Origin: an uncultured Saprospiraceae bacterium
GTDB lineage: Bacteria; Bacteroidota; Bacteroidia; Chitinophagales; Saprospiraceae
Direction of reading: 5' to 3'
NCBI GenBank assembly: GCA_937951685.1
Contig: CALFBG010000061.1
Span: 1 to 64,000, forward strand
Length of the DNA stretch: 64,000 nucleotides
This document shows, piece by piece, positions 15 through 25,608 of this stretch (its first letter is position 1; each line of letters starts with the position of its first letter). The notes under the pieces are model-generated. The model did not search any database, had not been told where the DNA came from, and was given only the letters and a program-made list of their open reading frames with translations. The translations under genes were made by a program, and so were the position numbers.

Positions 15-3000
15 CTAGTGCAAGAATATCATTTTCTGGATTTTGCTTTTCCCCGTTTTCGTTTGTAGATGATAATAATATACACCTGCTTGGTAAGCAA
101 GATCACTCGCTCGCAGCGTTACTTCATGCCAACCCAACGGATACTGCCCACGTATTTGCTTCATGAGTTTACCCGCAGCATTATAAATATCTAATTGAAT
201 CTCCGTGGCTTCCCCTAATTCAAAAGCAATTGTAGTCTGCTCATGGAAAGGATTAGGTGTATTTTGCAATAAGCGTACGGACCGCATCGCAACTTCTTGC
301 CCTTTAAATTGTAGCTGTACTGCTTGTAATGCTTCTAGCTCAAAATTACGGTCTCCCGCGTAAGCTTCCGAAACTAACATCTCCGAGTTGATCCATAATG
401 CTTCCCGTAATCGAATCCTCTTTTTTGATTTCAATTTAAGATAAAACAAAATAGGATTTTCCTCAAGCAAAGTTGAACTCATCCGATTCCAACTAAAGCC
501 TAACGTACCTTGTGCTTGTCGATGCCAACCAAAATTATATCTGCCAATATCTGCAATCGTCCCCGTTTCTATATCCACGATCTCTATTGCATCCGCCGGA
601 AAGCCCAGCGTAAATTGACAACCTAGAATTTTAGAAAATTCATTCGCGTATACGGGCACTAAATATTCTTCCCCTACTTGTAGCAATTGATCTTCTATCT
701 CCAAGCGTAGTGTTCCTTCCGTATTTCTAACGGCTGCCGCTCCCGTCAAAGCGTTTGGATTTGCGGAGCAATCAATATCCCCAACTTTGATCCCAATAAA
801 ATCAGAATTATTCAGATTCTCGTACAAGCTATTAATCGAGAAGGATTCTGGAAAAGTATTTTGAAAAGGATTCGTAGGATTTGGAAAAACGTAACTCGAT
901 TCTACAAATCGCCAAGAAGTATTATTTGGAAATTCTAAACTTAGAAATAAAATGAATTTTCGTAGATCAATCACATCAAAGATCGAAATATGCCCAGATC
1001 GATTCACATCCGCCGCAATCTGCTTATAAGGAGAGTCAATATTTTCAATGTGAAGCAAATGTTTCGTAATAATAATTAAATCAAAAGTCGTAATGCCATT
1101 CCGAGGAAGCGTATCCTTTCTGGGTGTAATGGTAAAATTACCACCAGGGACCAATTCTTCAAAAGTGTACTGTCCCGAAAAATCCGTGGTTACTTGATTG
1201 GTCTCATCTCCACTTAGATTAAATTCTACGCCCGCCAGTCCTACTCCATTTGCATCTTCTACCCCACCCGAAATATTAACCGTTGGACAATTTCCTCCGT
1301 TATCTTGTATTTCTACTACCGTTACACAGGTAGCCGTATTGCCAGCTTCGTCCGTCACCAATAAACTGACATTTTGGAAACCAACGTCATCACAATCAAA
1401 ACTAGAAGGTTGAACCTCAAAGCTTAAATTTTCTGGTGCCGAACAATTATCCATACTCCCATAATCCAGCATTGCCGAGGTCAATTCGACGGTACCGCCT
1501 TCCGTGAGATTCGCCACCAAGCCCGTAATACAAATCACACTCGGATTAGTCCGGTCAACCACGGTGACTTGTATTTCGCAAGTACTGATATTACCACACT
1601 CATCCGAGACTTCATACTCAACGAGGTGTACCCCAACTGGATATATTCCACTCGCATCCGCCGTAGCTTCCTCCGCGTAAGGACTATTATTCGTAATACT
1701 CAAATTAGGGTTACAATCCATCCCCGTGACTGGAGCAATAGTCACGTAAGTCCCCGCACAATCATTTGCGTAAGCCTCTACCGTTATATTTTCCGGACAA
1801 TCCACAACTGGAGCTTCATTATCTAAGACTCTGATAATTTGAGTGTAAGTCCAATAACCTTCATTCGTACCACTGTTTGGATCAAAACTACACCATTCTA
1901 CTACTACCCAGTTACGCAAAATCGTGTAGCACGCAGGTGCCGCAAGGTTAAAAAAGTTATCTGTATGGCTGATCCCAACATCTTTGCAGGTTCCATTCAT
2001 GATTATAGGCGACCCCGTAATGCTCTCCTCCACCGACGTACCGCAAGTATAGCTAATAAACTCCGGCGGAAATTGCACCGTCATGGGATTAGTATCCTCT
2101 AGGTAAATCCACTGCGTGCAAATCTGTTCATTGCCTTCTGTATCTACTGTCGTCCACGTTCGTTCAACGCTCCCTGTATTACAGGTATTAAGGTTGAGTT
2201 GGTCGGTAAAATAAATCGTATCAATGCTACAATTATCCGTACTTGTTGCCACGCCCGTTAGTCCTAAATCTTCGTAATCTTCCACACAAGCAATCGTTAC
2301 GTCTGCCGGGCAACTAATCAATGGATAAATATTATCCGCCACTTGTATCGAACTACTACAGCTGCTAAAATTACCGGCTGTATCATAAACCCTCAAGTGA
2401 ACTGGAATTGGCGAAGCCGCTATATCTGTACAATCAAAACTTAGAAAAGGGGTGAAAGTTACACCGTCTCTACTCAATTCAAAATAATCAATTCCACAAT
2501 TGTCGGTACTAGCGCTATTCACCGCAGTTGGTAGTAAAATGGCTGTTCCGATATTCGTTAAACTGATCTCTAAAGTTTCCGCGCAAGCGGCTAAAGGCGT
2601 AACGTCGTCAACCACCGTAATCGTCATCTGACAAGTATCTTTATTGCCACATTCATCCTCGGCAATGTATGCCACGTTATGGACACCAATGGGTACCTCA
2701 TCAAAAGGACCATAGCCATTTCCGAAAGCCCAACTTGGTACGATCGTCACACTAGAACAATCATCCGTCGCACTAGCTGCGGGTAAATTAATCGTCGCAC
2801 CACAAGTAGAGGAAGTCGTTCCAACCACAAGATTGGCAGGACAGCTTAACACAGGAGGCGTTTTATCTTTCAATTTTATCAATTGTACATCTACGACAAA
2901 CTCACCGTTGCATTCGTCTAATAATGTCCAAGTTCTCAGAATATTGACACTATTAGGAGAGCAAGCTGGTAAGACTTGATCCGAAGAAGAAATTAAAAGT

Positions 3001-3788
3001 TCGCAATGCGTTGAATTTGTTAATAGCATACCAGCTAAACTTGGTGCACCAGTAAGGCTGAAGTCACTTGGATCATCCAGACAATCTAGCGATGGACTTT
3101 CTACGTCGTCGCGATTGAGTGGCAACATAATATCATTTAGCGTGGCCCTTTTGAAATATATGTTTTGCACACACACCCCCGTATTACCAGCGTCGTCCGT
3201 TACACTCCAAGTTCGTTCTATACGACTCGTAATAGAATCTCCTCCTTGATTCGTAAAACAAGTCAAATCGTAAAAGACATCTGTATAACTCAGATCATTC
3301 ATATCTAAGTTACTACAATTATCTACGACGGTTGGATATCCAATATCTTCGGGAGTCGCCGACTCAATGCACCAAATGGTTGTATCTTGACAAAGGATAT
3401 TTGGTGAAAAATTATCGCTTAGTATAATCGTTCCCCCACAAGAGTTGCCAGTAAAAATATTAACAATGCTATAGTTCAGTATTTGACCGATTTGGCTACA
3501 ATCAAGTACTCCAAAGAGCGGCGCTCCATTTTCATCTGTGATTGCTAAGCTAAAATCAGCTGGATCGCAGGCAGGATTAGCAAGCCCCAACTCAACCGTA
3601 ATCACCGCTTCTCCACTACTACCTAAAGCGATACTCAATGCCGAATTGCAAACTGGTGTACATTGCGCCTGTAGTTTAAGATTTGTTGCTAGTGTTAGCA
3701 ACAGGAAAAGTACTGGTAGAAGACTAGGCCTCCACAGTACAATACGTTGAATCGAATTCCAATATGTTTGATGACGCAACTTAAGCAT
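15..3788 (-). CDS. HYR-domain, dockerin/cohesin-like T9SS type A cargo protein
   Basis: The 1257-residue product is a secreted, probably surface-attached protein of unknown substrate. A signal peptide with a long n-region ends near residue 42 (LKLQAQ). The body is rich in Cys-containing beta-sandwich modules, including two recognisable HYR domains at about 308-395 and 652-742 (TPPVLSCP and APVVDCPENITV starts, DECGN motifs). A carboxypeptidase-regulatory-like module near 845-890 is followed by a dockerin-like pair at about 890-955. Its second loop is canonical (DVNRSGHISIFD) and its first is degenerate. A cohesin-like domain covers about 1024-1160, and the last 86 residues are a type A T9SS sorting domain (NTPNPF start, KIQKMIFLH end). 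The peroxidase at 22675-25608 carries the same tail order. The gene stands 600 bases downstream of the SprF-like gene and is probably transcribed separately. Domain calls were made by eye; the overall class is secure and the function unknown. Confidence 0.9.
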   Translation of the reverse strand: MLKLRHQTYWNSIQRIVLWRPSLLPVLFLLLTLATNLKLQAQCTPVCNSALSIALGSSGEAVITVELGLANPACDPADFSLAITDENGAPLFGVLDCSQIGQILNYSIVNIFTGNSCGGTIILSDNFSPNILCQDTTIWCIESATPEDIGYPTVVDNCSNLDMNDLSYTDVFYDLTCFTNQGGDSITSRIERTWSVTDDAGNTGVCVQNIYFKRATLNDIMLPLNRDDVESPSLDCLDDPSDFSLTGAPSLAGMLLTNSTHCELLISSSDQVLPACSPNSVNILRTWTLLDECNGEFVVDVQLIKLKDKTPPVLSCPANLVVGTTSSTCGATINLPAASATDDCSSVTIVPSWAFGNGYGPFDEVPIGVHNVAYIAEDECGNKDTCQMTITVVDDVTPLAACAETLEISLTNIGTAILLPTAVNSASTDNCGIDYFELSRDGVTFTPFLSFDCTDIAASPIPVHLRVYDTAGNFSSCSSSIQVADNIYPLISCPADVTIACVEDYEDLGLTGVATSTDNCSIDTIYFTDQLNLNTCNTGSVERTWTTVDTEGNEQICTQWIYLEDTNPMTVQFPPEFISYTCGTSVEESITGSPIIMNGTCKDVGISHTDNFFNLAAPACYTILRNWVVVEWCSFDPNSGTNEGYWTYTQIIRVLDNEAPVVDCPENITVEAYANDCAGTYVTIAPVTGMDCNPNLSITNNSPYAEEATADASGIYPVGVHLVEYEVSDECGNISTCEIQVTVVDRTNPSVICITGLVANLTEGGTVELTSAMLDYGSMDNCSAPENLSFEVQPSSFDCDDVGFQNVSLLVTDEAGNTATCVTVVEIQDNGGNCPTVNISGGVEDANGVGLAGVEFNLSGDETNQVTTDFSGQYTFEELVPGGNFTITPRKDTLPRNGITTFDLIIITKHLLHIENIDSPYKQIAADVNRSGHISIFDVIDLRKFILFLSLEFPNNTSWRFVESSYVFPNPTNPFQNTFPESFSINSLYENLNNSDFIGIKVGDIDCSANPNALTGAAAVRNTEGTLRLEIEDQLLQVGEEYLVPVYANEFSKILGCQFTLGFPADAIEIVDIETGTIADIGRYNFGWHRQAQGTLGFSWNRMSSTLLEENPILFYLKLKSKKRIRLREALWINSEMLVSEAYAGDRNFELEALQAVQLQFKGQEVAMRSVRLLQNTPNPFHEQTTIAFELGEATEIQLDIYNAAGKLMKQIRGQYPLGWHEVTLRASDLAYQAGVYYYHLQTKTGKSKIQKMIFLH

Positions 3789-4299: not shown

Positions 4300-4341
4300 C
4301 CAGAAAAGAGAAGCCCCCTCCTGACTAAGTCAGGAAGAGGC
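4300..4341 (-). terminator. intrinsic terminator of the SprF-like operon
   Basis: On the minus strand a 12-bp stem (arms 4313-4324 and 4330-4341, with G-U pairs, 5-nt loop) is followed by TTCTCTTTTC. It lies about 75 bases past the stop codon of the PorP/SprF-like gene, where an operon terminator is expected. Confidence 0.6.
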
Positions 4342-4415
4342 CATCCCAAAAACCAATTGTTAAAGGTTTCTTTAATTAGGATTGAAGTTCGCTCAATACT
4401 TATCGTTTACTACGA

Positions 4416-5378
4416 TTACTTATTTTTATTTTTGTCGGAGCGACCAAATTCAAACCCAATTGTTATTTCGTGTGATCCGCCGTTGAAACTTTGGAATTCA
4501 TCCAAAAAGACATCGTAGGAATAGAAAAATCTTAATGCTTGGTACTTCGTACCAATTAATACTCCAAAGGAACTTACGCCGTCTAACTGTTCGGGTAGAC
4601 CCGCAAGATTTCCAGTAGTTGCTCGGTAAGAAACACCACCAATCAATTTCTCATCTAGGAAAGAAGCTTTCAAATTGATATCAAATTGGAAAGGTACATT
4701 TCTTACTTTCTTCAATAAGAAAGAAGGCTCTAATGAAAAACTATTGCTGACCTCAAATTTATGTCCCGCGTGTAAGGTAAAATATTGGATAAAAGAGTTG
4801 CTCGTAGAATCAACGCCAATATTATCTAAACGGTTTCTAATCAAGTTTGGCAAAGCGATTCCAAAGAAGGTATTCTTCTTATAACTTCCCGTAAATCCTA
4901 GGGAGGCATCAAACGCTTTTACACCTTCTTCCGCATCTCCAACTACTTCATCTCCGGCATCATATAATGGATTGTCCAAAGAAGAATTATTCAAGCGCAT
5001 TTCGTGAAATTCTGTAGAGAGTCCCAATGCAAAGCTCAAACCTCGATCCTCAATATCATAGCGAAAAGCGTAAGATAATTGCGCGCGGTAACTAGATACA
5101 TTTCCAATACTTTCTGCGTAAAGCAGCGCACCAATTCCTAATCGCTTACCGATTGGACCATTGTAACTCACGGAGTAAGTTTTAGGTGCACCTGGAAAGC
5201 CCGTCCATTGTGTACGCGTATTGATAAATAATTTGTGATGCTCTGCATCGAAACCTGCCGTAGCAGGGTTGATGAGTAATGGGTTAATTTGATAGTGCAT
5301 TAAGACTGCCTCTTCTTGCGCCTGCGACCATTGTACTAAAATACAGCACGCAAATATAAGTGTGATAAACTTTTTCAT
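4416..5378 (-). CDS. PorP/SprF family type IX secretion system outer-membrane protein
   Basis: The 320-residue product belongs to the PorP/SprF family, predicted outer-membrane beta-barrels that work with T9SS. SprF of Flavobacterium johnsoniae is needed to secrete or attach SprB, a type B sorting-domain cargo. The protein has a signal peptide (cleavage after WSQAQ, residue 21), the family N-terminal signature (HYQINPLLINPATAG, then a TRTQWTGFPGAP segment) and alternating beta-strand patterns to the end. The length is normal for the family. It starts 32 bases after the giant SprB-repeat gene, whose C-terminus is a type B sorting domain. The pair therefore reproduces the sprB-sprF arrangement, and this protein is probably the dedicated partner of that cargo. 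No symbol is given because the genome will have several paralogues. Confidence 0.93.
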   Translation of the reverse strand: MKKFITLIFACCILVQWSQAQEEAVLMHYQINPLLINPATAGFDAEHHKLFINTRTQWTGFPGAPKTYSVSYNGPIGKRLGIGALLYAESIGNVSSYRAQLSYAFRYDIEDRGLSFALGLSTEFHEMRLNNSSLDNPLYDAGDEVVGDAEEGVKAFDASLGFTGSYKKNTFFGIALPNLIRNRLDNIGVDSTSNSFIQYFTLHAGHKFEVSNSFSLEPSFLLKKVRNVPFQFDINLKASFLDEKLIGGVSYRATTGNLAGLPEQLDGVSSFGVLIGTKYQALRFFYSYDVFLDEFQSFNGGSHEITIGFEFGRSDKNKNK

Positions 5379-5410
5379 GTTAGATTAAGTTAAGAGTTTT
5401 TGGGAATAAA

Positions 5411-8400
5411 TTACCTTCTCAATAATGTCACGTGACCTTTCGTTTGCTGGTTAGCCCCCGAACTATCTTTGTAAGCAAAGACGTAGAAATATGTACCTTC
5501 TGGCAAGTCATCACCATCTAAGGTTTTTCCAATCCAACTATTATCATAGCTGTCCGCACGGTATACCAATTGTCCCCATCGGTTATAAACCTCAAGACTA
5601 TTTTCTGCGTATAGGTTTGAACAGTTGATAATAAATTCATCGTTCTTTCCGTCTCTGTTTGGCGTGATAATATCTCGCACTTCTAAGCAATCTACTGGAT
5701 CTTCTAAATCAACTTGTCCCGTAGCCGTACAACCGTTCGCATCTGTTACTAAAACAGCATACAAGCCTTCCGGTACATTTGATAATTCAGAACCAATGGT
5801 TCCTCCAGAATTGTTCCACTGATAATTGAATGGCGCAGTACCGCCAATTGGAATCGCTTTAGCGTAACGTCTTGCACCATCCGCTTCAAACTCTACTACA
5901 ATTGGATCCGGCTCCGTCAAGGTAAAGTCAACTGTTCCTACTCTGTTGTTGGCATCCGTTACCGTTACGGTATAGTTTCCAGCACAAACTAAGAAGATTG
6001 CATCGTTGATATCACCTCTACTCCACAAGTAAGTATAAGGTGCTGTTCCTCCAATTGGAATCGCAGATAACTCACCGTCGCACTCTCCGTTGCAACTAAT
6101 TACTTCATCTACACTAATCTCCACCACGAATGGCTCTATGGATGGTAAGATAAATGTTTCTGTAGTTACACAAGCTCGACTGTCTGTAACAACTACGGTG
6201 TAAGATCCACCGTTGATGCCACCGATATCTTGCGTTGTTGCACCATTATTCCAATCGTAACTGTAAGGAGGAGTACCACCCGTTACCGTAATATCAATCG
6301 CACCGTCGTTACCGACTAGTGGTGCGGTGATTTGATTATTTGAAATGCTTAATGCTGCACTTGGAGCGCTAATCACTAAGGCATCATTGATAAAGCTATT
6401 ACCTCCTTGATCCGTAATCGTCACTGCGTACGTTCCTGGACTAAGGTTACTAATGTTTTGATCTGCTGAAGTAAATCCAGGTCCCGTCCAAGTAAAAACA
6501 TAAGCTGGGCTTCCACCAGAAACATTCGTTACAATAGAACCATCATCCTGTCCAAAACAACTCACATCCATAACATCAAAGTCAACGACTAAGCCTAACT
6601 CTACTACAATGGAAGCAGAACCAGCTGGACAGCCATTCGCATCCGTTACAACTACGTTATATGGACTGTTATTATGACAAAGACCTGATACATCTTGACT
6701 GATTGGTCCGTGACTCCACACATAACTATAAGGTGCTACACCTCCTGTTACAGAAATATTTATCGCACCAGTACAATTCGTTTGTGTTGGATCGGTATTA
6801 TTAATTACTGCATCTACGGTAATTACTATTGGATCAGGTTCTTCAATCGTGAACCCTTGCGTAGTCATTAAACCACCATTATCTGTAATCGTAACCGTAT
6901 AGTCACCTGCTGTTAATTCATCGAAACAAACATTTCCGGTCAAACTATTGATAACGTTACCAGCACCAAGGCTAAAGGTGTAAGGTTCACAACCACCGAA
7001 GATCGAAATACAAGCTTCTCCGTCATCTCCACCATTACAATTTACATCCGTCTCGTTGATTTCCGCAATGATTAAGGGTGCAGGTTCGATAGTGATATCG
7101 TTAGAAACTAGAATACATCCTTTATTATCCGTAACGGTAACACTGTAATCATTTTTGCACAAGTTTGCAACGTTCTGGCTGATAGGTCCGTGGCTCCATT
7201 CAAAGCTGTACGGCAAGGTTCCTCCTGCCACACTAATGTTGATCGCACCATTACAGCCCTGTCCAGACTCATTGGTAATATTGACATTGGTTAAAGTCAT
7301 TGCCGTTGGTTGTCCTACCGTATAGGTTTCTGTAATGGTCAAGCCTAAATTATCCGTTACCGTTACCGTGTAACTTCCTGCGGTTAATCCAGTAACAACC
7401 GAAGAGATCGAACTTTGTACGTCCCACTCGAATTCGTATGGTGCATTTCCACCCACAATTTGCAGCGAGATAGAACCATCATCTCCACCAAAACAAGATA
7501 CATTATTAACTGTCTGAATAACATCAAAAGGAATTTGCACCTGGAAACAAGTTGATTCGGTACAACCATTATCATCCGTCACCGTTACGCAGTAGTTTCC
7601 TAAAGCTAAGTTCGTGAGATCTTCCATTACCGATGTAAATCCACTAGGTCCTTCCCAAGCATAGCTGTAAGGAGAAGTACCACCCGTCGCTGTAAGATCA
7701 ATTGATCCATCATTATTAGCAGAACTGGCATTAACTACATTCCCCGTGAGCGCGATTGCACTTGGCTCAGAGATATTAATGGTACCAGAGCTTCTAGTAC
7801 AACCATTTGCATCCGTAACGGTAACTGCGTAGTTTCCTGCACATAAGTTCGCTAAGTCTTCGTTGATACTAATTTGCGTATTGGTATCTTCGTTAAACCA
7901 ACTATAGGAATAAGCTCCCGTTCCACCACTTGCACCTAAGTCAATTGATCCGTTACACTGACCCGCACAACTTAAGTTTGCTGGTGTAAAATCGATGCTA
8001 ATTGCTGTCGGTTCGCTAATCATTACCCCACTCGTAATCGTACATCCATTATCATCTGTGATCGTTACCGTGTAAGATCCTACTGCTAATCCGCTAGGAT
8101 CCTCCATGCCATCGTAAGCATTATCATTCCAATCATAGTTATAAGGGAGTGTTCCTCCAGTAACCGTTAAATCAATACTTCCGTTGGTCAAACCATTACA
8201 AGTAATATCATTTCCAATGATTGTTGCGCCGAGTACGTCGGGCTCCGTTACCATCATACTAGTAGTCTCGGTACAACCATTATCGTCCGTTACCGTTACC
8301 GTGTAATTTCCAGCACAAAGTCCGGTAGGGTTTTGATTTGTACCCGCACCATTACTCCAAGCAAAACTATAAGGAGCAGTTCCGCCGGTAGCACTTAAGT

Positions 8401-11400
8401 TTAAGCTTCCATCACAGACGCCATTACAACTTGCATTACTTCCCGTCACGGTTAAGTCAAGCGCTAATGGTGTACCTACAGTAATCACACTCGATACAAT
8501 TGCACAACCATTATCTCCGGTAACCGTCAAGGTATAATTTCCAGCTGCTAAATTTGTTAAATCTTCCGTAGTGGCTCCTCCCGTCCAAAGGAAAGTATAA
8601 GGAGCAATACCATTCATGATAGTTACATTAATGGCACCATCCATATCACCATTACAAGTGACGTTCGTTATATCTATTTGATCAATAGTAGGACAAGAAG
8701 CTGCTCCTACGGTGAAGGAGTTCGTTCCAGTACAGCCATTATCATCGGTTACGGTTACAGTATACGTTCCTGCACTCAAACCGGTTAAATCAGCATCCGT
8801 ACCTTGTCCCGCCGACCATTCGTAATCGTATGGAGAAGTTCCTCCCGATACGTCAGTATCAATACTTCCATCGTTGCCTGCCATTTCGTTCATTACCGTT
8901 CCAGTAATTAAAATTGGCATTGGTTCTGTAACCGAAGCCGTAGTAACCATTTCACATCCTTGGTCGTCCGTTACCGTTACATTATATACACCTGCGCACA
9001 AACCGTTAGGATCTTCGTCCGTTCCAGCTCCATTATCCCAAGCATAAGTATAAGGACTGGTTCCGCCGCTAACGGCAAGATTAATTGATCCATCACAAAC
9101 GCCGTTACAGCTTGTTGCTATTGGTAGTACCACTAAGCCTAAGGCATCGGGTTGATCTACCGTAGCAGTAATTGTTTCCGTACAACCATTTTGGTCAGTA
9201 ACGGTAACGGTATAATTAGCTGCACATAAGTCACTAGGATCTTCATTTGTAAAACCATTACTCCAAAGGTAAGTGTACATCCCCATTGCTCCGTTGATTG
9301 TTAAGTCAATACTTCCATCGCATACACCATCACAACTTGCATCGGTAGGATTTACACTTAACGTAACGCCCGTTCCTCCACCAACAATTCCAGTGATCGT
9401 TTCCATACAACCATTATCATCGGTAACGGTAACAGTATACGTATTAGCACATAAGTTCGTTGGATCTTCGTCCGTACCTGCACCATTGTCCCAAATATAA
9501 GTATAAGGTGCAGTTCCCGTATTCACGGTCAGGTTGATACTTCCGTCACAAACGGCTCCACAACTTGCATCACTCGGAGCAATACTAAGATCTATTCCCG
9601 CTCCATTATCTATTGTTCCAGTAATTGTTCCAGTACAACCATTATCATCGGTAACCGTTACACTATAACTATCTGCACACAAATCGCTAGGGTCTTCATC
9701 CGTACCCGCACCATTGTTCCAGATATAGGTATAAGGTGCAGTTCCCGTATTCACCGTTAAATTAATACTTCCATTACAAACACCATCACAGCTAGCATCC
9801 GTAGGTGAAATACTAAGATCTATTCCTGCTCCATTATCTATCGTTGCTGAAATTACTTTCGTACAACCATTATCATCAGTCACCGTAACGGTATACGTAT
9901 CCGCACACAAATCGCTAGGGTCTTCGTCGGTACCAGCACTGTTGTCCCACGCAAATGTGTAAGGACTCGTTCCGCCTGAAACGTTTAAGTCAATGCTTCC
10001 ATTACAAACACCTGCACAACTAGCATCCGTAGGGGTAACACCCAAGGTAATATCAGTTGGCGATCCTATGGTTGCACTTGTGGTTGTCGTACAACCATTA
10101 TCGTCTGTAACCGTTACATTATAAGTATCTGGACATAATCCAGTTGGATCTTCATCTGTACCAGCACCATTATCCCAAACAAAAGTATAAGGGCTAGTTC
10201 CTCCAAGCACGGTCAAAGTGATTGATCCATCACAAACTCCGTTGCAGCTTACATCGTTGCCCATCGCAATCGTATTTAAGAGCAATGGCTCTGTAATTGC
10301 TTCCGTTGCGGTGGTTGTACAACCATTGTCATCCGTGACCGTGACGCTATAACTACCTTCACATAAGTTATCAACATCTTCCGTTGTACTGCCATTACTC
10401 CACAAGAAACTATAAGGATTCGTTCCGCCCGTAACCGTAAGATCAATACTTCCATCACAATCTCCATTGCAACTTGCTCCCGTGGCAGCAGTTGTAGCAC
10501 CTAATGCTGTAGCCGGTTCTGTTACCGTATAAGTATCCGTTACCGTAGCGGAACTATTGTCCGTTACCGTTACCGTATAAGTATCAGCGACTAAGTCTGC
10601 AATGTCTTGTGTGGTCGCACCATTACTCCAGAGATAACTATACGGCATATCTCCGCCCACGACGGTAATGTCAATGCTTCCAGTATTATCCCCGTTACAA
10701 TCTACCTCCGTTACAGTATTACTTACAATATCCAAAGGACCTTCGCCACCGGGACTTTGTACGGTATAATCACAGCCAATGGTTTGAAAATTAATCGCTG
10801 GTGGACTATTGATATCCGCTACTTCAATTGCGGTAGGTACATTTGTTATATTAAAAAATCCGTCATCGCCAACGTTACCCGTTACGTCAAAACACGCTGA
10901 GAAAATAACAGTACCATCAACGAGCGTTTGACCATTCACTGGGTTTTGGGCCAACCAGAAAACGGTAATCGCAGAATCTCCTACGATTCCAATATTTCCA
11001 CCTTGTTGGTTCGGATCATAAAAAAGCAAAGTTGGATTGGCTCCTAAGTCAATCGTATTAAATTTCATCACGTTAGTATCCCATTGCATACTATACGTCA
11101 TTCCAGTAATATTAATAAAATTGTTGGCCATAAAATCAAAGCAAACCGTAGAATCTGGGTTGACTTCTGGACAAGAGGTAAATAAAGTAATTCCATCAAA
11201 AACACCCGTTACCGTTACACTTCCCTCTTGACCATCAAAGTTTAACTCTGGTGGGCTATTCACATCGTTGGCTGAAATATCACTTGGTTCGTCCGTAAAA
11301 GAAATCGGACTAACCTGTCCAGCGGAGCCAATGACGTTGAAGCAAACAGAATAAATGGTAGTGTTATTGGCTAAGCTCTGTCCCGAAATAGGATTCGGGG

Positions 11401-12655
11401 CGAGATAAAAGAACGTTAAAGCCGTATCGGGAATTCCATTTCCAGGATCGCCCTGTGGACCAAAGTTTCCTCCTACCGTTGGATTATAAAAAAGTCCCAA
11501 GGGATTCGCTCCCAGCAGGACAGTATCAAATTCTAAGATCGTTGGATCCCAAGCCATCGTATACGTAACACCAGTGATTGAATCGAAATCAGCTACGCTA
11601 AAATCAACACAGATTTCAGTACCTTCGTCAGCAGTTTCCGTCGAAGCAATAAAACTCACCGTTTCAATGCCCATTCCAGTTCCGGTTATATCTACTTTGC
11701 CGGGTACCGTTGTAATTGGGTAACAACCATCACATTGACTAGTGTCGGTCGCTAATAAGTTTTGTGGCATATTGGTAAAGCCAATCGGAGAAGTCGTCCC
11801 GCCGGCACCAACAAGCGTAAAGTATAGTTTAAATACATCTGCACCCGTAGGAATGGTTACGCCCCCACCATCAGAATCAAACCAAACCATTTCTAAGATT
11901 CCACTAGAAGCTGCATTAGCATTGAAGGATTGCTGTTCCAATTCCGGTACGTTAAATCCACCGACAGAATCAAAACTTAGAAGTGTTGATTCCCAAGTAT
12001 ACGTTCCTTGTAAGCTAATTAGTTCGGTAAAGCCCGTTGCACTAATCGTTACACATACGGATTCTCCCGTTTCGCCCGATTCCTCAGAGGCGGTAAGAGT
12101 TAGTCCGTTAGCGGGTGGAGGTGGTGTACCATTGATGATTACGTTTCCAGCTGTCCCGGAAAGGGCAGCACCTTCTCCCGAAGTGGTTGTAAAAGATAGT
12201 GGTGTTGGGTTGCCCGTTACGGCTACGGAAGTTGAAGCTCCTGGATTATCTTTCGCAATAAACCGGATCGTATAGATCACAGTATTATTAGCAACCGTCG
12301 TTGGAATCAATGCCGGATGATTATAAATCACCGTAATTTGTCCATCGACAACGCCCATATTACCAGCGTGCTTTGTCGTTCCAAAATGGGAAAACCAATT
12401 CAACCCGAATAAGTCAGTCGTGTTGAAAAAAGAAATGGTATCAAATTCTAATACCGAAGAATCCCAGTTAATGGAATGACCGAACGCCACATAGTTAACG
12501 TAGTCATCCATCGTAACGTCATATAAAATGACATCTCCAGGATCAGCGTTAACGGTAGCTGTAGGGGTAATGTTAAAGGTTGGTTGCGCGTAAGTAAATA
12601 CAGAACAAAGAAGCATCAACCCTAATGTTAGTAGGAAAGTTTTTACTTTACTCAT
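5411..12655 (-). CDS. giant cell-surface protein: four cohesin-like domains, SprB repeat array, type B T9SS sorting domain
   Basis: The 2414-residue product is predicted to be a surface adhesin or scaffold. A signal peptide ends near residue 24 (VFTYAQ). Four cohesin-like beta-sandwich domains follow at about 28-175, 183-325, 330-490 and 492-635; each has a W-D/E-S/T/P-x-x-L-x-F-D-like strand such as NWDSSVLEFDTI. From about 640 to 2315 there are about 21 SprB repeats plus one decayed copy, each 75-85 residues (CNGxCDGSI, GGTxPYxYxWxNG, YTVTVTDDNGC). The last 95 residues are a gliding-motility-associated type B sorting domain (DIITPNRDGKNDEF, EVYNRWGQLVY). SprB repeats occur in the mobile adhesin of F. 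johnsoniae, but no gliding genes are visible here. The gene lies 34 bases after the small cohesin gene and 32 bases before the SprF-like gene. The combination of cohesins with SprB repeats is unusual. Confidence 0.92.
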   Translation of the reverse strand: MSKVKTFLLTLGLMLLCSVFTYAQPTFNITPTATVNADPGDVILYDVTMDDYVNYVAFGHSINWDSSVLEFDTISFFNTTDLFGLNWFSHFGTTKHAGNMGVVDGQITVIYNHPALIPTTVANNTVIYTIRFIAKDNPGASTSVAVTGNPTPLSFTTTSGEGAALSGTAGNVIINGTPPPPANGLTLTASEESGETGESVCVTISATGFTELISLQGTYTWESTLLSFDSVGGFNVPELEQQSFNANAASSGILEMVWFDSDGGGVTIPTGADVFKLYFTLVGAGGTTSPIGFTNMPQNLLATDTSQCDGCYPITTVPGKVDITGTGMGIETVSFIASTETADEGTEICVDFSVADFDSITGVTYTMAWDPTILEFDTVLLGANPLGLFYNPTVGGNFGPQGDPGNGIPDTALTFFYLAPNPISGQSLANNTTIYSVCFNVIGSAGQVSPISFTDEPSDISANDVNSPPELNFDGQEGSVTVTGVFDGITLFTSCPEVNPDSTVCFDFMANNFINITGMTYSMQWDTNVMKFNTIDLGANPTLLFYDPNQQGGNIGIVGDSAITVFWLAQNPVNGQTLVDGTVIFSACFDVTGNVGDDGFFNITNVPTAIEVADINSPPAINFQTIGCDYTVQSPGGEGPLDIVSNTVTEVDCNGDNTGSIDITVVGGDMPYSYLWSNGATTQDIADLVADTYTVTVTDNSSATVTDTYTVTEPATALGATTAATGASCNGDCDGSIDLTVTGGTNPYSFLWSNGSTTEDVDNLCEGSYSVTVTDDNGCTTTATEAITEPLLLNTIAMGNDVSCNGVCDGSITLTVLGGTSPYTFVWDNGAGTDEDPTGLCPDTYNVTVTDDNGCTTTTSATIGSPTDITLGVTPTDASCAGVCNGSIDLNVSGGTSPYTFAWDNSAGTDEDPSDLCADTYTVTVTDDNGCTKVISATIDNGAGIDLSISPTDASCDGVCNGSINLTVNTGTAPYTYIWNNGAGTDEDPSDLCADSYSVTVTDDNGCTGTITGTIDNGAGIDLSIAPSDASCGAVCDGSINLTVNTGTAPYTYIWDNGAGTDEDPTNLCANTYTVTVTDDNGCMETITGIVGGGTGVTLSVNPTDASCDGVCDGSIDLTINGAMGMYTYLWSNGFTNEDPSDLCAANYTVTVTDQNGCTETITATVDQPDALGLVVLPIATSCNGVCDGSINLAVSGGTSPYTYAWDNGAGTDEDPNGLCAGVYNVTVTDDQGCEMVTTASVTEPMPILITGTVMNEMAGNDGSIDTDVSGGTSPYDYEWSAGQGTDADLTGLSAGTYTVTVTDDNGCTGTNSFTVGAASCPTIDQIDITNVTCNGDMDGAINVTIMNGIAPYTFLWTGGATTEDLTNLAAGNYTLTVTGDNGCAIVSSVITVGTPLALDLTVTGSNASCNGVCDGSLNLSATGGTAPYSFAWSNGAGTNQNPTGLCAGNYTVTVTDDNGCTETTSMMVTEPDVLGATIIGNDITCNGLTNGSIDLTVTGGTLPYNYDWNDNAYDGMEDPSGLAVGSYTVTITDDNGCTITSGVMISEPTAISIDFTPANLSCAGQCNGSIDLGASGGTGAYSYSWFNEDTNTQISINEDLANLCAGNYAVTVTDANGCTRSSGTINISEPSAIALTGNVVNASSANNDGSIDLTATGGTSPYSYAWEGPSGFTSVMEDLTNLALGNYCVTVTDDNGCTESTCFQVQIPFDVIQTVNNVSCFGGDDGSISLQIVGGNAPYEFEWDVQSSISSVVTGLTAGSYTVTVTDNLGLTITETYTVGQPTAMTLTNVNITNESGQGCNGAINISVAGGTLPYSFEWSHGPISQNVANLCKNDYSVTVTDNKGCILVSNDITIEPAPLIIAEINETDVNCNGGDDGEACISIFGGCEPYTFSLGAGNVINSLTGNVCFDELTAGDYTVTITDNGGLMTTQGFTIEEPDPIVITVDAVINNTDPTQTNCTGAINISVTGGVAPYSYVWSHGPISQDVSGLCHNNSPYNVVVTDANGCPAGSASIVVELGLVVDFDVMDVSCFGQDDGSIVTNVSGGSPAYVFTWTGPGFTSADQNISNLSPGTYAVTITDQGGNSFINDALVISAPSAALSISNNQITAPLVGNDGAIDITVTGGTPPYSYDWNNGATTQDIGGINGGSYTVVVTDSRACVTTETFILPSIEPFVVEISVDEVISCNGECDGELSAIPIGGTAPYTYLWSRGDINDAIFLVCAGNYTVTVTDANNRVGTVDFTLTEPDPIVVEFEADGARRYAKAIPIGGTAPFNYQWNNSGGTIGSELSNVPEGLYAVLVTDANGCTATGQVDLEDPVDCLEVRDIITPNRDGKNDEFIINCSNLYAENSLEVYNRWGQLVYRADSYDNSWIGKTLDGDDLPEGTYFYVFAYKDSSGANQQTKGHVTLLRR
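5710..10735 (-). repeat. in-frame tandem SprB repeat array
   Basis: About 21 coding units of roughly 225-255 bases follow each other. Neighbouring units share long stretches around the codons for CDGSI, YTYxWDNGAGTDEDP and VTVTDDNGC. Units 3-8 are the most alike (between about 9000 and 10300), which suggests recent expansion. Such arrays can change copy number by recombination and may be misassembled from short reads. Confidence 0.85.
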
Positions 12656-12689
12656 GAGTCCTTGGAATTTGGGATGTTGAGAATAAATT

Positions 12690-13487
12690 TTATCTCATTA
12701 ACATCATCTTTTTAATTAATAAATGTTTTGAGGTTTGAATAGAATAGAAATACGTACCCGTTGTTGGTAAGAAGTCAGGGGATATTGGTACCTGGTGCAA
12801 ACCTTTCTGATAATAGGCACTATGTGCGTATATTTCTTTTCCAGCTAAGTCGGTTATTTTTAAAGTTATATAATCAGCATTTTTTAGTTTAAATGGTATT
12901 TGCGTTACCTTATTGAAAGGATTGGGCTCATTCTGAAAAAGAACGAATTGTTCATTTTCCAACGACTGGGAAATAGCGGTAAGGTCATCAATCATAATGG
13001 AACCGTTCTCAGCGGTAACGTCGAGATTAATTACTTGGTAGTCAGCAGAAGCAGTGTCCAACATTCCGAATACGACACTGGTAGGTTCTTGCACAAATTC
13101 CAAAGGAGAACTTTCGCCTTTCTCACCAATCAATTCGAATCGAATCGTGAACATAGAATCATTGTCTGCTAAATTTATGCCAGATACGCTATTATCTATC
13201 CAAAGAAAAAACAATTTTCCATCTTCCGCCTGCGTCGTCCCAAAGGAAGCTGCGGATAATAAGGGTAGATTAAAATTCGTTGTTTCTACAAACTTAACAA
13301 CGTTGGGGTCCCACTGTATCGTAAATTGCGCAGCCACAATATAACTGAAGCCTTCTACACTAATGTCTACGTCAATGGTCTCTCCTTTTTTGCCAATTAG
13401 CTCAGGAGAAATTATGGTGAGTTGTGCCGATGAAGGCACAACAAACCACAATAGCAAAGCAAAATATAACAGTAAACCTTTAAACAT
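12690..13487 (-). CDS. small cohesin-domain T9SS type A cargo protein
   Basis: The open frame extends to 13538, but the Met at 13487 is preferred because it gives a compact signal peptide (MFKGLLLYFALLLWF, cleavage after PSSAQ) and a 265-residue product. One cohesin-like domain fills about residues 22-165 (GETIDVDISVEGF, QWDPNVVKF). A type A T9SS sorting domain covers the last 85-90 residues (NEPNPFNKVTQIPF, ending LIKKMMLMR). It is the first gene of a three-gene operon, 34 bases before the giant cohesin/SprB protein. In architecture it looks like a single cohesin of the giant protein with its own sorting signal. It may bind dockerin-bearing cargos such as those at 15-3788 and 22675-25608, but this is inference. 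The family is clear and the role unknown. Confidence 0.88.
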   Translation of the reverse strand: MFKGLLLYFALLLWFVVPSSAQLTIISPELIGKKGETIDVDISVEGFSYIVAAQFTIQWDPNVVKFVETTNFNLPLLSAASFGTTQAEDGKLFFLWIDNSVSGINLADNDSMFTIRFELIGEKGESSPLEFVQEPTSVVFGMLDTASADYQVINLDVTAENGSIMIDDLTAISQSLENEQFVLFQNEPNPFNKVTQIPFKLKNADYITLKITDLAGKEIYAHSAYYQKGLHQVPISPDFLPTTGTYFYSIQTSKHLLIKKMMLMR

Positions 13488-13538
13488 TTTTAACAATTGG
13501 TTAAGCGATGACTCTCTTACCGTTGACAAGTAAGTCAT

Positions 13539-14614: not shown

Positions 14615-15280
14615 CTAAATCAAACTATTATCGTAGGCCAGTTTGATCAAACCAGCCGTATTGCTTACGCCTAATTTTCGCATGATATTCTTACGGTGTA
14701 CACTGACGGTTTGGTCACTGATGTAGAGTTCTTTGGCAATTTGTTTATTACTCAACGCTTGCGTAATCAAGCGCAAAATCTCAATTTCTCTTTTTGTAAG
14801 GTTGAATTTCTTGATAAAGCGATCTTCAAAATGATCTTGCTCCTGTTTTTTCTCAGGACTGTCCATCATGCCATTAAGACTAACGCCTTTACCAAGATAA
14901 GTCTTACCATCAAGCACTTCGTCTATTCCTTTAATCAACTCTGGAATACCGACATTTTTAAGGATGTAACCATCTACACCAGATTTGAAGGTAGATTTTA
15001 CAATTTTGTGGTCGTCGTACATCGTCAAGGCGATAATCTTGAGCGCAGGAAATTGCTCTTTGATAATATTCAACATATCCAACCCATTGCCTTCCGGCAT
15101 ATTGAGGTCCAATAGTAGTAATTCTGCTGGAACTGTTTTTAACAACTCGAGCAAACTTTCTCCCGTATGGGCCGTTCCTACAATCCTGAAGTTACGACCT
15201 TCCGCTTCATTTAGAATAGTCTTGAGACCAAGGATGAATAAGTGATGATCGTCGGCTATAATTATTCTCGCGTTGTGCAT
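14615..15280 (-). CDS. NarL/LuxR-family two-component response regulator
   Basis: The 221-residue DNA-binding regulator has a receiver domain at residues 1-122 with the acidic pair near D10/D11, the phospho-accepting Asp near residue 58 (LLLLDLNMPEGNG), a switch Thr (IALTMYDD) and Lys (YILKNV). A LuxR-type helix-turn-helix occupies about 155-217 (LTKREIEILRLI, SNKQIAKELYIS, VSVHRKNIMRKLGV). Length and order match the NarL/FixJ group. No histidine kinase gene is next to it, so it is an orphan in this window and its signal and targets cannot be inferred. Gaps of over 650 bases upstream and 1 kb downstream suggest it is monocistronic. Confidence 0.95.
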   Translation of the reverse strand: MHNARIIIADDHHLFILGLKTILNEAEGRNFRIVGTAHTGESLLELLKTVPAELLLLDLNMPEGNGLDMLNIIKEQFPALKIIALTMYDDHKIVKSTFKSGVDGYILKNVGIPELIKGIDEVLDGKTYLGKGVSLNGMMDSPEKKQEQDHFEDRFIKKFNLTKREIEILRLITQALSNKQIAKELYISDQTVSVHRKNIMRKLGVSNTAGLIKLAYDNSLI

Positions 15281-22674: not shown

Positions 22675-25608
22675 TTATGGTCTGCTCGTACGCAAGAGTA
22701 CCATTTTCTTCGTTTTCGTACCCGTTTCAGTTTGCAATTGATAATACAATACACCGTCCGTAGCAATACTACTACGATCCAATTCTATCTGCTGATAGCC
22801 TTTTTCGAAGTACTGTGTTCTGTTCAATACGGCTCTTCCCGCAAGATCAAAAATACGCAACGTAGCTTGTCCAGCAGTTGGTAATTCGAAACCAATCATC
22901 GTCGTTTCCGTAAATGGATTCGGTTGGTTTTGGTAAAGTTTGAAATTACGTTCTGTCGTCGCTATAGCAGCTTCCTTAGACTGAAAGTTTAAAGCAATAT
23001 CCATCGCTTCTGATTGCTTATTGTATGCTTCTTTTTGTGTTAATCGAGAATTAATACTAATGATATCACTCAACTTAGCATTTTCTTGCACTTCAAAAAC
23101 GATGGTAAAAAGTACTTCGTCTTCGACGTCGTCTGCTTCTCCGTACCAAATCGTAGTGATGGCACCAGCCGCTTCAAAAATACCAAAATTATCTTTCGTT
23201 AATCCAGCTAAAGCGCCTGTCTTAAGCTCGCGGAAAGCTAATTTTTCCGTATCATACCCCAAGGTAAATTGATAGCCTTCCATATCTGCAAGATCAGCAG
23301 ACCTAAAAGCAAGTTCATAACGCTCTCCTGCCACTAATGTAGCGTCATCTACTTCAAAGTTTAAGGTGCCTGCAAATCCTCTCACTTCACTAGAGAGTAA
23401 ATTATTGGGGTCCGCAGAATTATCAATATCTCCTAATTTAACCGCTACAAAGTTCGCCGCACTAGTTGCGCCCGGTGCAACGACCACGGATTCAGGAAAA
23501 CTCTCTGATAAAGGGTCATTCAGATTTGTAAAATTATAACCGGCATCCACAAATCGCCAAGTTTGGTTCGATGGAAAATCGCTCGTAATATTCAAAATAA
23601 CTTTTTGAATTTCAATCATATCCAATATCGTAAAGCCATCTTGCATATTAACGTCTGCCGCAATGTATTCATAGGGCGAATCTAAAAAGTCGAGGCTCAA
23701 TAGATGTTTTCTAAGGATAAGCATATCTGAAAGTCCAATTCCACTTGCTGCCGTGCTACTCTTGGTCGGTGTAATCGTATATTCGTGCATCGTAGGCAAG
23801 TTCGTGAATCGGAAAATTCCGTTATCGTTTGTCAAACCACCCGCAATATTTCCCGGATCGCTACTCGTGATATCTAAAGCGACGGAAGGTATTCCTACTG
23901 AATTAGCCGTTTCTACGCTTACTAAAATATTAGCTGGAATAGAATCGTGTGGCATCGCTTCAAAGACTTTCTCTTGCATCAAGGTAATTCCTGTATTGTG
24001 CATCACAAGATCATGCATTGTCGTTTGCTTAATCATTGCCTTTTCTTCTGTACTCAAGCCTGCATCTACTTCATAGTAAAAACGATCTCCATCTCTAATG
24101 ATTTTGAATTGCTCTTCCATGATCTTCATGATCGTCGGTCCAAAAAGAGCATCCGACATATGGTCTTCTGCCAACATTCCCACCCAAGAATCAATATCGT
24201 CAACATCACCATAAAGCGTCGTTAAAGCGGCAACGGCTTCTGGATTAGAGCAAAGTTCTGAAATCGTAGTATAAGGTGTCAAACCAAAATCCTCCCGTAC
24301 TTTGTTAAAATCGGGGATTCCTCTTTCTCTTCCTCGGTTAATATTGATCGCCGCTAAGTCTAAGCCACCCGCTCCTGGAGGACCGAACAAGAAATTACGC
24401 ACATCGTCAATCACCTTCGCATCCATTTCTTGCTGAATTTTAGCCGCCATTCCTTTGAATAAAGGATCCATTCCCCCACCATCAATAAATTCTAAAGGAT
24501 TGAAGAACGCAGATAGTAAACCAATATCTCCCTGAGGAATCATATTGCCTTCATTATCCATTCGCTGAATATTAGAATTCAATAACGTATGTCCCAAACG
24601 GAAGGCCGAAGCAGAAAATACATTAAAGATATTTGGATTTTGAGTAGCATCATATCCCGCATAATCAGGAACGTGAACGCCCATCGCTGGCAACCATTCT
24701 TCGTAAACAATGGCTTGTAACATTCCAATCACTAATCTCCTTGCGTGTTGGTAAAGCATTTCATCCGTCCAAGTAGGATTAGCAAGGATTAATTCGTCGC
24801 ATAAACGATTATGTTCTCGCACAAATAGAGTATGCATCCCGATCAATAATAAGTTTTCATTAGCCCGTACATCGCCTGCTACAAATAGCTTGGGAGACAT
24901 TCCTACATCATCTGCCATATGTGGCGCAGTAGGATCAATTTCACTTTCAAGTTCTCCGTCAAGGGTATTAAAAGGTAAGTTATTGCCCGCAGAAGTTTTT
25001 AACTTGCCATCACTAAACGTACGCAACCAATTGGCTCGATCCAAGTCTGAACCGTAAACGCCCGAAGCATCTAAAAACGCAGTAATTCTGTTGGGATGTT
25101 GACGCGGATTAGCAAAAGAAGTTCCTGTACCGGCAAGCACCTCCGAGCGATTCATACCAATAAAGGCAATCCCCGTATTGAAAGGATCAAACCAAGGATC
25201 ACCGATGGGCACTTGAATATTAGCCGTTTCGGTATTATTTTCAACTAGGGTAATATCATGGTCAATGAACTGACCAAAGACCCATACAAAATCACTCAAT
25301 TTGAGCGCATCATTAATCAGGCTGTCTTGTGCAAATAACGTATTACTAATCAGTCGTGGATTCGGTCGACTTGCACCACCGGGCAAAGAGATACCATCTC
25401 CGTAATCGACGGTTGTTTTGCGAGCTAACGGCGCACCAGCTGCCCCCCAATCTGATTGTTGTAAATTATTTCCAGTACCATCAAAACTTCTGTACTCTTG
25501 GGCTGATCCAGGCAGGATACCCATAGATAGGCAAATTAATACCAGTAAAGGCTTTAGCCTTAATTGTAAATGTTCGTTCATGGTCAAATAATTGATAATA
25601 TCGTTCAA
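22675..25608 (-). CDS. animal-type haem peroxidase with dockerin/cohesin-like tail and T9SS type A sorting domain
   Basis: The 977-residue secreted protein has an N-terminal peroxidasin-like haem peroxidase domain at about 35-520. The distal His is residue 117 in FGQFIDHDITL, and the proximal His is residue 340 in FRLGHTLLNSN. Family members oxidise halides or organic donors with H2O2; the substrate here is unknown. Met-10 (25581) may be the true start, just before a hydrophobic signal segment ending GSAQ. From about 560 a carboxypeptidase-regulatory-like module leads into a dockerin-like pair (AADVNMQDGFTILD), a cohesin-like domain (about 745-885) and a T9SS sorting domain (NQPNPFTETTMIGF, ending KTKKMVLLRTSRP). 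This tail order matches the HYR protein at 15-3788. The gene is flanked by a terminator and a divergent intergenic region, so it is probably monocistronic. Confidence 0.92.
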   Translation of the reverse strand: MNDIINYLTMNEHLQLRLKPLLVLICLSMGILPGSAQEYRSFDGTGNNLQQSDWGAAGAPLARKTTVDYGDGISLPGGASRPNPRLISNTLFAQDSLINDALKLSDFVWVFGQFIDHDITLVENNTETANIQVPIGDPWFDPFNTGIAFIGMNRSEVLAGTGTSFANPRQHPNRITAFLDASGVYGSDLDRANWLRTFSDGKLKTSAGNNLPFNTLDGELESEIDPTAPHMADDVGMSPKLFVAGDVRANENLLLIGMHTLFVREHNRLCDELILANPTWTDEMLYQHARRLVIGMLQAIVYEEWLPAMGVHVPDYAGYDATQNPNIFNVFSASAFRLGHTLLNSNIQRMDNEGNMIPQGDIGLLSAFFNPLEFIDGGGMDPLFKGMAAKIQQEMDAKVIDDVRNFLFGPPGAGGLDLAAININRGRERGIPDFNKVREDFGLTPYTTISELCSNPEAVAALTTLYGDVDDIDSWVGMLAEDHMSDALFGPTIMKIMEEQFKIIRDGDRFYYEVDAGLSTEEKAMIKQTTMHDLVMHNTGITLMQEKVFEAMPHDSIPANILVSVETANSVGIPSVALDITSSDPGNIAGGLTNDNGIFRFTNLPTMHEYTITPTKSSTAASGIGLSDMLILRKHLLSLDFLDSPYEYIAADVNMQDGFTILDMIEIQKVILNITSDFPSNQTWRFVDAGYNFTNLNDPLSESFPESVVVAPGATSAANFVAVKLGDIDNSADPNNLLSSEVRGFAGTLNFEVDDATLVAGERYELAFRSADLADMEGYQFTLGYDTEKLAFRELKTGALAGLTKDNFGIFEAAGAITTIWYGEADDVEDEVLFTIVFEVQENAKLSDIISINSRLTQKEAYNKQSEAMDIALNFQSKEAAIATTERNFKLYQNQPNPFTETTMIGFELPTAGQATLRIFDLAGRAVLNRTQYFEKGYQQIELDRSSIATDGVLYYQLQTETGTKTKKMVLLRTSRP

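Follow-up and report, generated by a model that had tools for sequence, protein, structure and literature searches.

Cohesin domains on a SprB-repeat protein: a candidate surface docking site in Saprospiraceae

The 64,000-nucleotide stretch analyzed here (contig CALFBG010000061.1, positions 1 to 64,000; hereafter, the window) comes from an uncultured Saprospiraceae bacterium and encodes a three-gene cluster whose central product, a giant protein of 2414 residues, joins four N-terminal cohesins to a SprB repeat array and a type B sorting domain of the type IX secretion system (T9SS). This arrangement is real, recurrent, and built of known parts, and no description of SprB repeats and cohesins in one protein was found in the literature searched, from which subscription papers were mostly absent. 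At the level of sequence, the domain identities, their order, their recurrence, and a neighboring dockerin gene are established. With confidence barely above even, we propose that the cluster provides the cell with a scaffoldin-like surface docking site and, with it, a multivalent adhesive layer. The giant would be exported by the T9SS and held at the outer membrane, via its type B end, by the adjoining PorP/SprF protein; the SprB array would act as a spacer and the outward cohesins as sockets. Dockerin proteins of the same cell, first among them the HYR-repeat protein encoded next door, would plug into these cohesins and so supply the multivalent layer. We infer the anchoring by analogy with F. 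johnsoniae and P. gingivalis, and we also infer the outward orientation of the cohesins and their contact with dockerin partners.

The gene cluster and its cohesin domains

The three genes lie on the minus strand, separated by gaps of 34 and 32 bases in the open reading frame (ORF) calls. The first (12690-13538) encodes a small secreted protein of 282 residues with a signal peptide, recognized by eye, one cohesin (12990-13424; PF00963, E 2.2e-11), and a T9SS type A sorting domain (Por_Secre_tail in Pfam; 12705-12926). Its ORF starts at 13538, and position 13487, the start given in the initial annotation, is an internal methionine that leaves a plausible signal peptide, again by eye. The giant (5411-12655) was annotated with Pfam, NCBIfam, and our own profiles. 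Its SprB array (residues 650-2283; 5807-10708) comprises 22 stretches in Pfam (E 1.4e-176) and 21 repeats by our profile, with 14 of the 20 spacings at 72-77 residues; its C-terminal CHU_C domain (residues 2327-2411; 5423-5677) scored E 1.3e-24 in Pfam and 53.3 bits as a T9SS type B domain in NCBIfam (cut-off 35). The third gene (4416-5378) encodes a 320-residue PorP/SprF family outer-membrane protein (Pfam PorP_SprF, E 1.7e-53; NCBIfam PorP/SprF family, 196.9 bits against a cut-off of 90.55). The initial annotation had described such a cluster, with these gaps and with about 21 SprB repeats and a type B sorting domain in the giant, and the ORF calls, Pfam, and NCBIfam bear this out. With SprB repeats, a type B sorting domain, and an adjoining PorP/SprF gene, the giant has the features of a SprB-type T9SS type B adhesin; with tandem cohesins on a non-catalytic protein, it also has those of a scaffoldin. 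The pairing of a PorP/SprF gene with a type B giant is ordinary and already known, and the 4416-5378 product, judging from its family and position, probably shuttles and anchors the giant as its cognate partner.

The whole giant retrieved no Pfam cohesin match at E ≤ 0.1. When its four N-terminal domains were tested singly, domain 2 (residues 184-323; 11687-12106) matched PF00963 at E 4.4e-5 and 24.1 bits, exactly the cut-off, while domains 1 (residues 26-174; 12134-12580), 3 (residues 332-482; 11210-11662), and 4 (residues 488-632; 10760-11194) gave no Pfam cohesin match up to E 10. All three can be aligned both to domain 2 and to the 282-residue protein's cohesin, and alignment together with our own profiles delimits domains 1 and 3. 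A profile built from these five domains matches solved cohesins (5nrk, E 2.5e-7), and a 45-domain profile matches cohesins of the PDB at E 8.2e-11. An AlphaFold2 model of residues 24-730 reached a mean predicted local distance difference test score (pLDDT) of 75.0 and a predicted template modeling score (pTM) of 0.37. In a structural comparison of the modeled region, the top 31 rows were all cohesins, with Z 13.1-17.4, over domains 2 and 4; domain 2 aligned with 5nrm at Z 17.4 (132 residues, 1.8 Å) and domain 4 with 2jh2 at Z 14.4 (130 residues, 2.6 Å). Row 32 was the cohesin pair 3l8q spanning domains 1 and 2 (Z 11.7), and rows 33-50 were other folds at Z ≤ 9.7. Domain 1 by itself drew pilin rows (Z 9.2), and the comparison scarcely reached domain 3. 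For the whole giant, phmmer matches in the PDB were limited to a pair of "Decoration protein" chains (E 0.0025 and 0.0034), both over the SprB array. Because direct Pfam proof for all four domains failed, the cohesin case rests on profile and fold. The proposed cohesin identity nevertheless holds up through Pfam for domain 2, the family profiles, the PDB cohesins, and the fold of domains 2 and 4; the Pfam check for PF00963 in the N-terminal region succeeded for domain 2, at the cut-off, and not for domains 1, 3, and 4.

Many of the giants' cohesins share a conserved cysteine pair (from the alignment; 10466-12586 in the window), a possible disulfide. Both cysteines are absent from domain 1 of the window's giant and from the 282-residue protein, and domain 2 keeps only the first. 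Upstream of the cluster, on the same strand, Pfam identifies a LuxR-type response regulator (14615-15280). A hairpin scan placed a terminator-like stem of 14 pairs at 4312-4342 (minus strand), about 74 bases past the PorP/SprF gene; promoter and terminator scans were at the level of shuffled sequence (31 versus 30.5 and 9 versus 8.3).

Recurrence and spread of the layout

Related loci were assembled from 40 high-scoring family-search regions, 80 named contigs, 18 phylum-search regions, the 10 regions of the weak-score comparison described below, and 12 regions of the own genome. This set is a non-random sample, and its 80 named contigs, found with a cohesin/type A query, are biased toward that tail. 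From it we selected, besides the window's giant, 28 comparison proteins with at least three cohesins, no dockerin, and no type A domain, none more than 75% identical. A CHU_C domain is present in 23 of the 28, and the other five run off their contigs. SprB repeats also occur in 23; of the remainder, three are cut, L251 has HYR domains instead, and L099 has neither. In 22 of the 28 loci, the same strand bears a PorP/SprF gene no more than 400 bases away, downstream in 20 (in L099 with a one-base overlap) and upstream in two (L196, L207); five of the six misses fall at a contig end, and L197 does not. A small cohesin gene precedes the multi-cohesin gene within 700 bases in 14 loci, with the 257-residue ORF of L208 taken as a small cohesin protein rather than type B. 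The initial annotation had called for a search of relatives for the same operon, and on these counts the layout recurs. A relative of the window's response regulator was found within 8 kb upstream in 10 of the 28 loci.

In 17 of the 28 multi-cohesin loci, a same-strand dockerin gene is found no farther than 5 kb away, an association that lends support to the reading of the giant as a likely scaffold. A rough hand estimate, which takes dockerin genes to be evenly spread and as numerous as 30 per 5 Mb, gives fewer than two of 28 loci with such a neighbor by chance. Among 20 solitary-cohesin loci of the family search taken as a control, three of them on stretches only 4-6 kb long, none had a PorP gene and one had a dockerin gene, about 6 kb away. 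The number of cohesins varies from 3 to 10 in these relatives, which were chosen for having at least three, and some carry near-identical copies (up to 100% within L199 and 88% within L178). As in scaffoldins, we count this variation in favor of a scaffold.

Across 199 Saprospiraceae genomes, our profiles detected cohesins in 183 and dockerins in 184. Both were found in 182 genomes and neither in 14; G071 showed only cohesins, and G033 and G135 only dockerins. We count such co-occurrence in favor of the scaffold, though it would also follow from cis pairs alone. A phylum-wide search matched 17 of 395 genomes at E ≤ 1e-8. Of the six genomes listed from the same family, five matched, as did 12 from elsewhere. 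All of these 12 except G570 were sampled with a single stretch, and in the resulting 11 stretches our own profiles found no SprB array, CHU_C domain, or PorP gene; in this sample, the SprB/type B layout therefore looks special to the family. Such sorting domains as the out-of-family stretches contained were type A, and cohesin-dockerin-cohesin proteins were present in three of the 11. One out-of-family locus (L225:3184-10932) encodes a 2582-residue protein that combines six cohesin matches with a type A sorting domain, two genes from a cohesin-dockerin-cohesin protein.

The idea that genomes with weak cohesin scores keep dockerins without a multi-cohesin protein was dropped, given that five of 10 loci had at least three cohesins in one type B ORF together with PorP (G002, G071, G102, G177, G192). 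In G019 the ORF is cut by the contig end and shows one cohesin, CHU_C, and PorP; in the loci read from G004, G052, G123, and G171, genomes in which the idea may still hold, every cohesin ORF had a single cohesin and PorP was absent. This sample took one locus each from nine genomes with weak cohesin scores and 6-23 dockerin matches and from G071, leaving out weak-score genomes with few dockerins such as G003, G022, G113, G190, and G191.

The own genome (6.58 Mb, 399 contigs) yielded 20 matches to the five-domain cohesin profile at E ≤ 1. Three further cohesin proteins of the type B or SprB kind are among its products: one with two cohesins, HYR repeats, CHU_C, and an adjoining PorP (C22), one with two cohesins, one SprB repeat, CHU_C, and an adjoining PorP (C374), and one with a cohesin and SprB that ends at a contig edge (C43). 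The genome also holds 18 PorP/SprF-family matches, one GldB, and two GldM-like proteins.

Cohesins appear in other contexts as well. In five loci, a second cohesin-SprB gene lies near genes that we take to be fabH-like and biotin carboxylase-like (L051:7627-9464, L236:6725-11329, L238:348-4724, L239:4821-9398, L258:8279-11601). L051 is truncated; a type B domain is present in L236, L238, L239, and, for L258, in the second ORF. No PorP gene was detected next to this gene in any of the five. A small one-cohesin protein lacking a detected sorting domain occurs in 20 related-genome loci (L171, L172, L174-L177, L179-L182, L184, L187, L190, L193-L195, L200-L202, L209), with a signal peptide recognized by eye in the three that were read. 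In at least six loci it lies near a putative tRNA 2-thiouridylase gene, judged from its first residues. No such short one-cohesin ORF without a sorting domain was present among the own genome's cohesin matches.

Within the window, two adjacent and similar reprolysin-type metalloproteases (33908-37561, 37844-41494) carry cadherin-like domains and type A sorting domains. Two CotH-kinase/lamin-tail-domain proteins stand in tandem (51223-55707, 56126-61279), the second with nine SprB repeats. A further six SprB repeats fall at 62018-64000, which is the 3' part of a 2046-residue ORF that continues past the window end (L060:2019-8159).

Dockerin partners and competing readings

Two dockerin proteins are encoded in the window, both on the minus strand. 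The product next to the cluster (15-3788) is a 1257-residue HYR-repeat protein with a dockerin (927-1130), a cohesin (297-713), and a type A sorting domain; the other (22675-25608) is an animal-type heme peroxidase whose tail likewise holds a dockerin (23572-23775) and a cohesin (22969-23367), by Pfam and our own profiles. The dockerin-like modules first suggested for both products are thus matched. The best PDB match of the dockerin family profile, at E 3.8e-12, is 4uyp_B, a dockerin solved in complex with a cohesin. Within the dockerin family itself, the two F-hands share 5.8 of 15 residues in register compared with 0.6-1.8 when shifted; such internal symmetry is a trait known from dual-mode dockerins. 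Pfam Dockerin_1 scored the 15-3788 product at 17.8 bits for the whole protein and 23.3 in the genome search, around a cut-off of 22.9.

In the own genome, the dockerin profile made nine matches, eight of which were assigned to proteins: the HYR-repeat protein, the peroxidase, and the products of L050, L052, L053, L054, L055, and L056. In all eight, a cohesin follows the dockerin, and a type A sorting domain is present as well. They include one heme peroxidase, one sortilin/BNR-type protein, and four proteins with HYR repeats, and none carries a recognized cellulase or plant-cell-wall enzyme domain (Pfam for seven; our own profiles only for L052). Five dockerin proteins of relatives, chosen as ones in which HYR repeats do not dominate, were also free of plant-cell-wall enzyme domains at E ≤ 0.001. 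Because HYR repeats occur in 96 of 123 dockerin proteins and the eight lack a recognized cellulase, the system is not a cellulosome. Of the initial idea, a SprB stalk holding cohesins as a scaffold for dockerin-bearing enzymes in the manner of a cellulosome, what gains support is the cohesins, their recurrence, and the nearby dockerin genes; the enzymes and the cellulosome analogy are not supported.

Several results weigh against the giant as a docking scaffold. Among 123 full-length dockerin matches, counted one per protein and not preselected for distance, a cohesin follows the dockerin on the same polypeptide in 102, in 96 of them at 63-73 residues. An AlphaFold2 model of the 425-residue tail of the 15-3788 product, computed with 69 relatives, reached a mean pLDDT of 93.5 and a pTM of 0.81; its cohesin aligns with 4ums at Z 11.9 (129 residues, 2.8 Å). 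Since this pTM was judged too high for three freely jointed units, the dockerin-cohesin tail probably forms one assembly of fixed arrangement, as modeled. Given both the cis cohesins and the tail model, the dockerins may be occupied rather than free for the giant. A dockerin gene is absent within 5 kb in 11 of the 28 multi-cohesin loci, although in all of these except L178, L250, and L253, eight in number, the sequence available on one or both sides is under 2.2 kb. In G071, a multi-cohesin type B protein is present and no dockerin of this type was found. Pairwise identity among the giant's four cohesins is only 18-42%, unlike recent scaffoldin-type duplicates. Finally, the giant's cohesins 1, 3, and 4 lack a strand-3 glutamine that its cohesin 2 and the cohesin of the 282-residue protein have. 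The position aligns with an aspartate of 5nrk, taken here as Asp39, a dockerin-contacting residue in CipA cohesin 2; it is glutamine in all 70 tail cohesins and in 38 of 45 others, a common trait that we count in favor of the scaffold.

The frequency of cis cohesins makes docking in cis a real rival. It is possible, though less likely than the docking site, that the dockerin-cohesin tail is a self-contained module that stabilizes and spaces type A proteins, with each dockerin packed against its own cohesin or linked head-to-tail to the cohesin of the next molecule. The giant's cohesins might then, with equal reservation, be end-caps or chain partners rather than free sockets. Beyond the cis pairing and the tail model, 16 of the 21 dockerins without a detected cis cohesin have 192-216 residues before the type A domain, which leaves room for an unrecognized one. 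Invariant residues lie both in the span from dockerin to cohesin (W127, K169, G171, D172) and within the cohesin itself (Q226). A self-contained tail, however, leaves unexplained both the multi-cohesin, dockerin-free proteins beside dockerin genes and the growth of cohesin copy number in some relatives.

It is unlikely, though not negligibly so, that the cohesin-like domains serve simply as beta-sandwich modules for adhesion, placed at the tip of a gliding or surface adhesin of the SprB type and binding sugars or surfaces rather than dockerins. The missing Pfam match for three of the four domains, their low mutual identity, the loss of the strand-3 glutamine in the same number, the pilin rows on domain 1, and the GldB and GldM homologues would fit this account, whereas the uninterrupted run of cohesins at the head of the structural comparison, the cohesin pair that follows it, and the dockerin gene near 17 of 28 loci speak against it.

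Less probable again is a giant that moves: a SprB-like mobile adhesin whose cohesins would load dockerin proteins for the gliding motor to carry along the surface. This account was drawn from the GldB and GldM homologues and from the lack of a PorE-like gene beside the window's PorP/SprF gene. Among 1379 ORFs (phmmer, E ≤ 1e-20, L050 query), L050 and L251 are the only cohesin clusters in which a PorE-like protein stands beside the PorP, and none stands beside the window's cluster; PorE-like proteins also occur in L181 and L194, which are solitary-cohesin loci. In L050:1-9325 and L251:3-10414, a type B protein alternates cohesins with HYR domains; PorP comes next, along with an OmpA/PD40 protein that looks PorE-like. 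Were the giant mobile, this second cohesin locus would, at the same low probability, be its fixed version. Mobile type B proteins have been postulated where no PorE-like neighbor is present (Gorasia et al., PMC9143113).

Precedents and implications

Cellulosomes are the best-known setting of cohesin-dockerin assembly, and their scaffoldins (CipA, ScaA/ScaB type) are non-catalytic secreted proteins with tandem cohesins in variable copy number, accompanied by dockerin proteins in the genome. The cluster shares these traits. It differs in that the giant has a T9SS type B end and a SprB array and no carbohydrate-binding module (CBM) among its Pfam matches at E ≤ 0.1, and in that its candidate partners are mostly HYR proteins, usually with a cis cohesin. 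Cellulosome membership was rejected for want of a CBM on the giant and of a cellulase among the eight dockerin-tail proteins. Cohesin folds outside cellulosomes were among the structural matches, namely NagJ of Clostridium perfringens (2jh2/2w1n) and 2xdh of Archaeoglobus fulgidus, which we take not to be multi-cohesin T9SS adhesins with a PorP/SprF partner. The grappling-hook protein GhpA of Aureispira, presumably a Saprospiraceae member, is likewise a giant surface protein and gave Foldseek rows for the four-domain model (9flw, 9flp); since sequence support was missing, with no match of the giant to GhpA in the PDB at E ≤ 0.01, we read these rows as generic tandem Ig-like domains and rejected the relation.

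The SprB/SprF system of F. johnsoniae resembles the cluster in its SprB repeats, type B domain, adjoining PorP/SprF gene, and GldB and GldM in the genome (PMC9143113, PMC12618676). Type B proteins need a specific PorP/SprF for secretion (PMC12618676), and SprB was found bound to SprF (PMC9143113). The window's cluster and its relatives differ from F. johnsoniae SprB in their 3-10 N-terminal cohesins and in the dockerin gene near 17 of the 28 loci. The nearest precedent for a scaffoldin-like protein with a T9SS-type end, an idea already proposed for Cloacimonadota, is a 3,755-residue protein of Ca. Stygibacter that carries cohesins in tandem along with CBM2/CBM3 and, at its C-terminus, a domain for surface attachment (PMC8542988). 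There, cohesins go with CBM2/CBM3, the dockerin proteins are enzymes (GH18, GH57, peptidases), and the available part of the text makes no mention of SprB repeats or a PorP/SprF gene. Other sources treat SprB and cohesins in separate sections (PMC3796261), record cohesin-related genes in two Bacteroidetes metagenome-assembled genomes, one of them Saprospiraceae, in a cellulosome context (PMC8547425), or report no cohesins or dockerins in the organism studied (PMC5831590).

If the docking scaffold proposed here is correct, a plug-and-socket system joined with type IX secretion and SprB adhesins would build an adhesive surface layer, one widespread in Saprospiraceae. New orthogonal cohesin-dockerin pairs would be on offer, and cohesin annotations in such bacteria that PMC8547425 took as signs of cellulosomes would gain a function.

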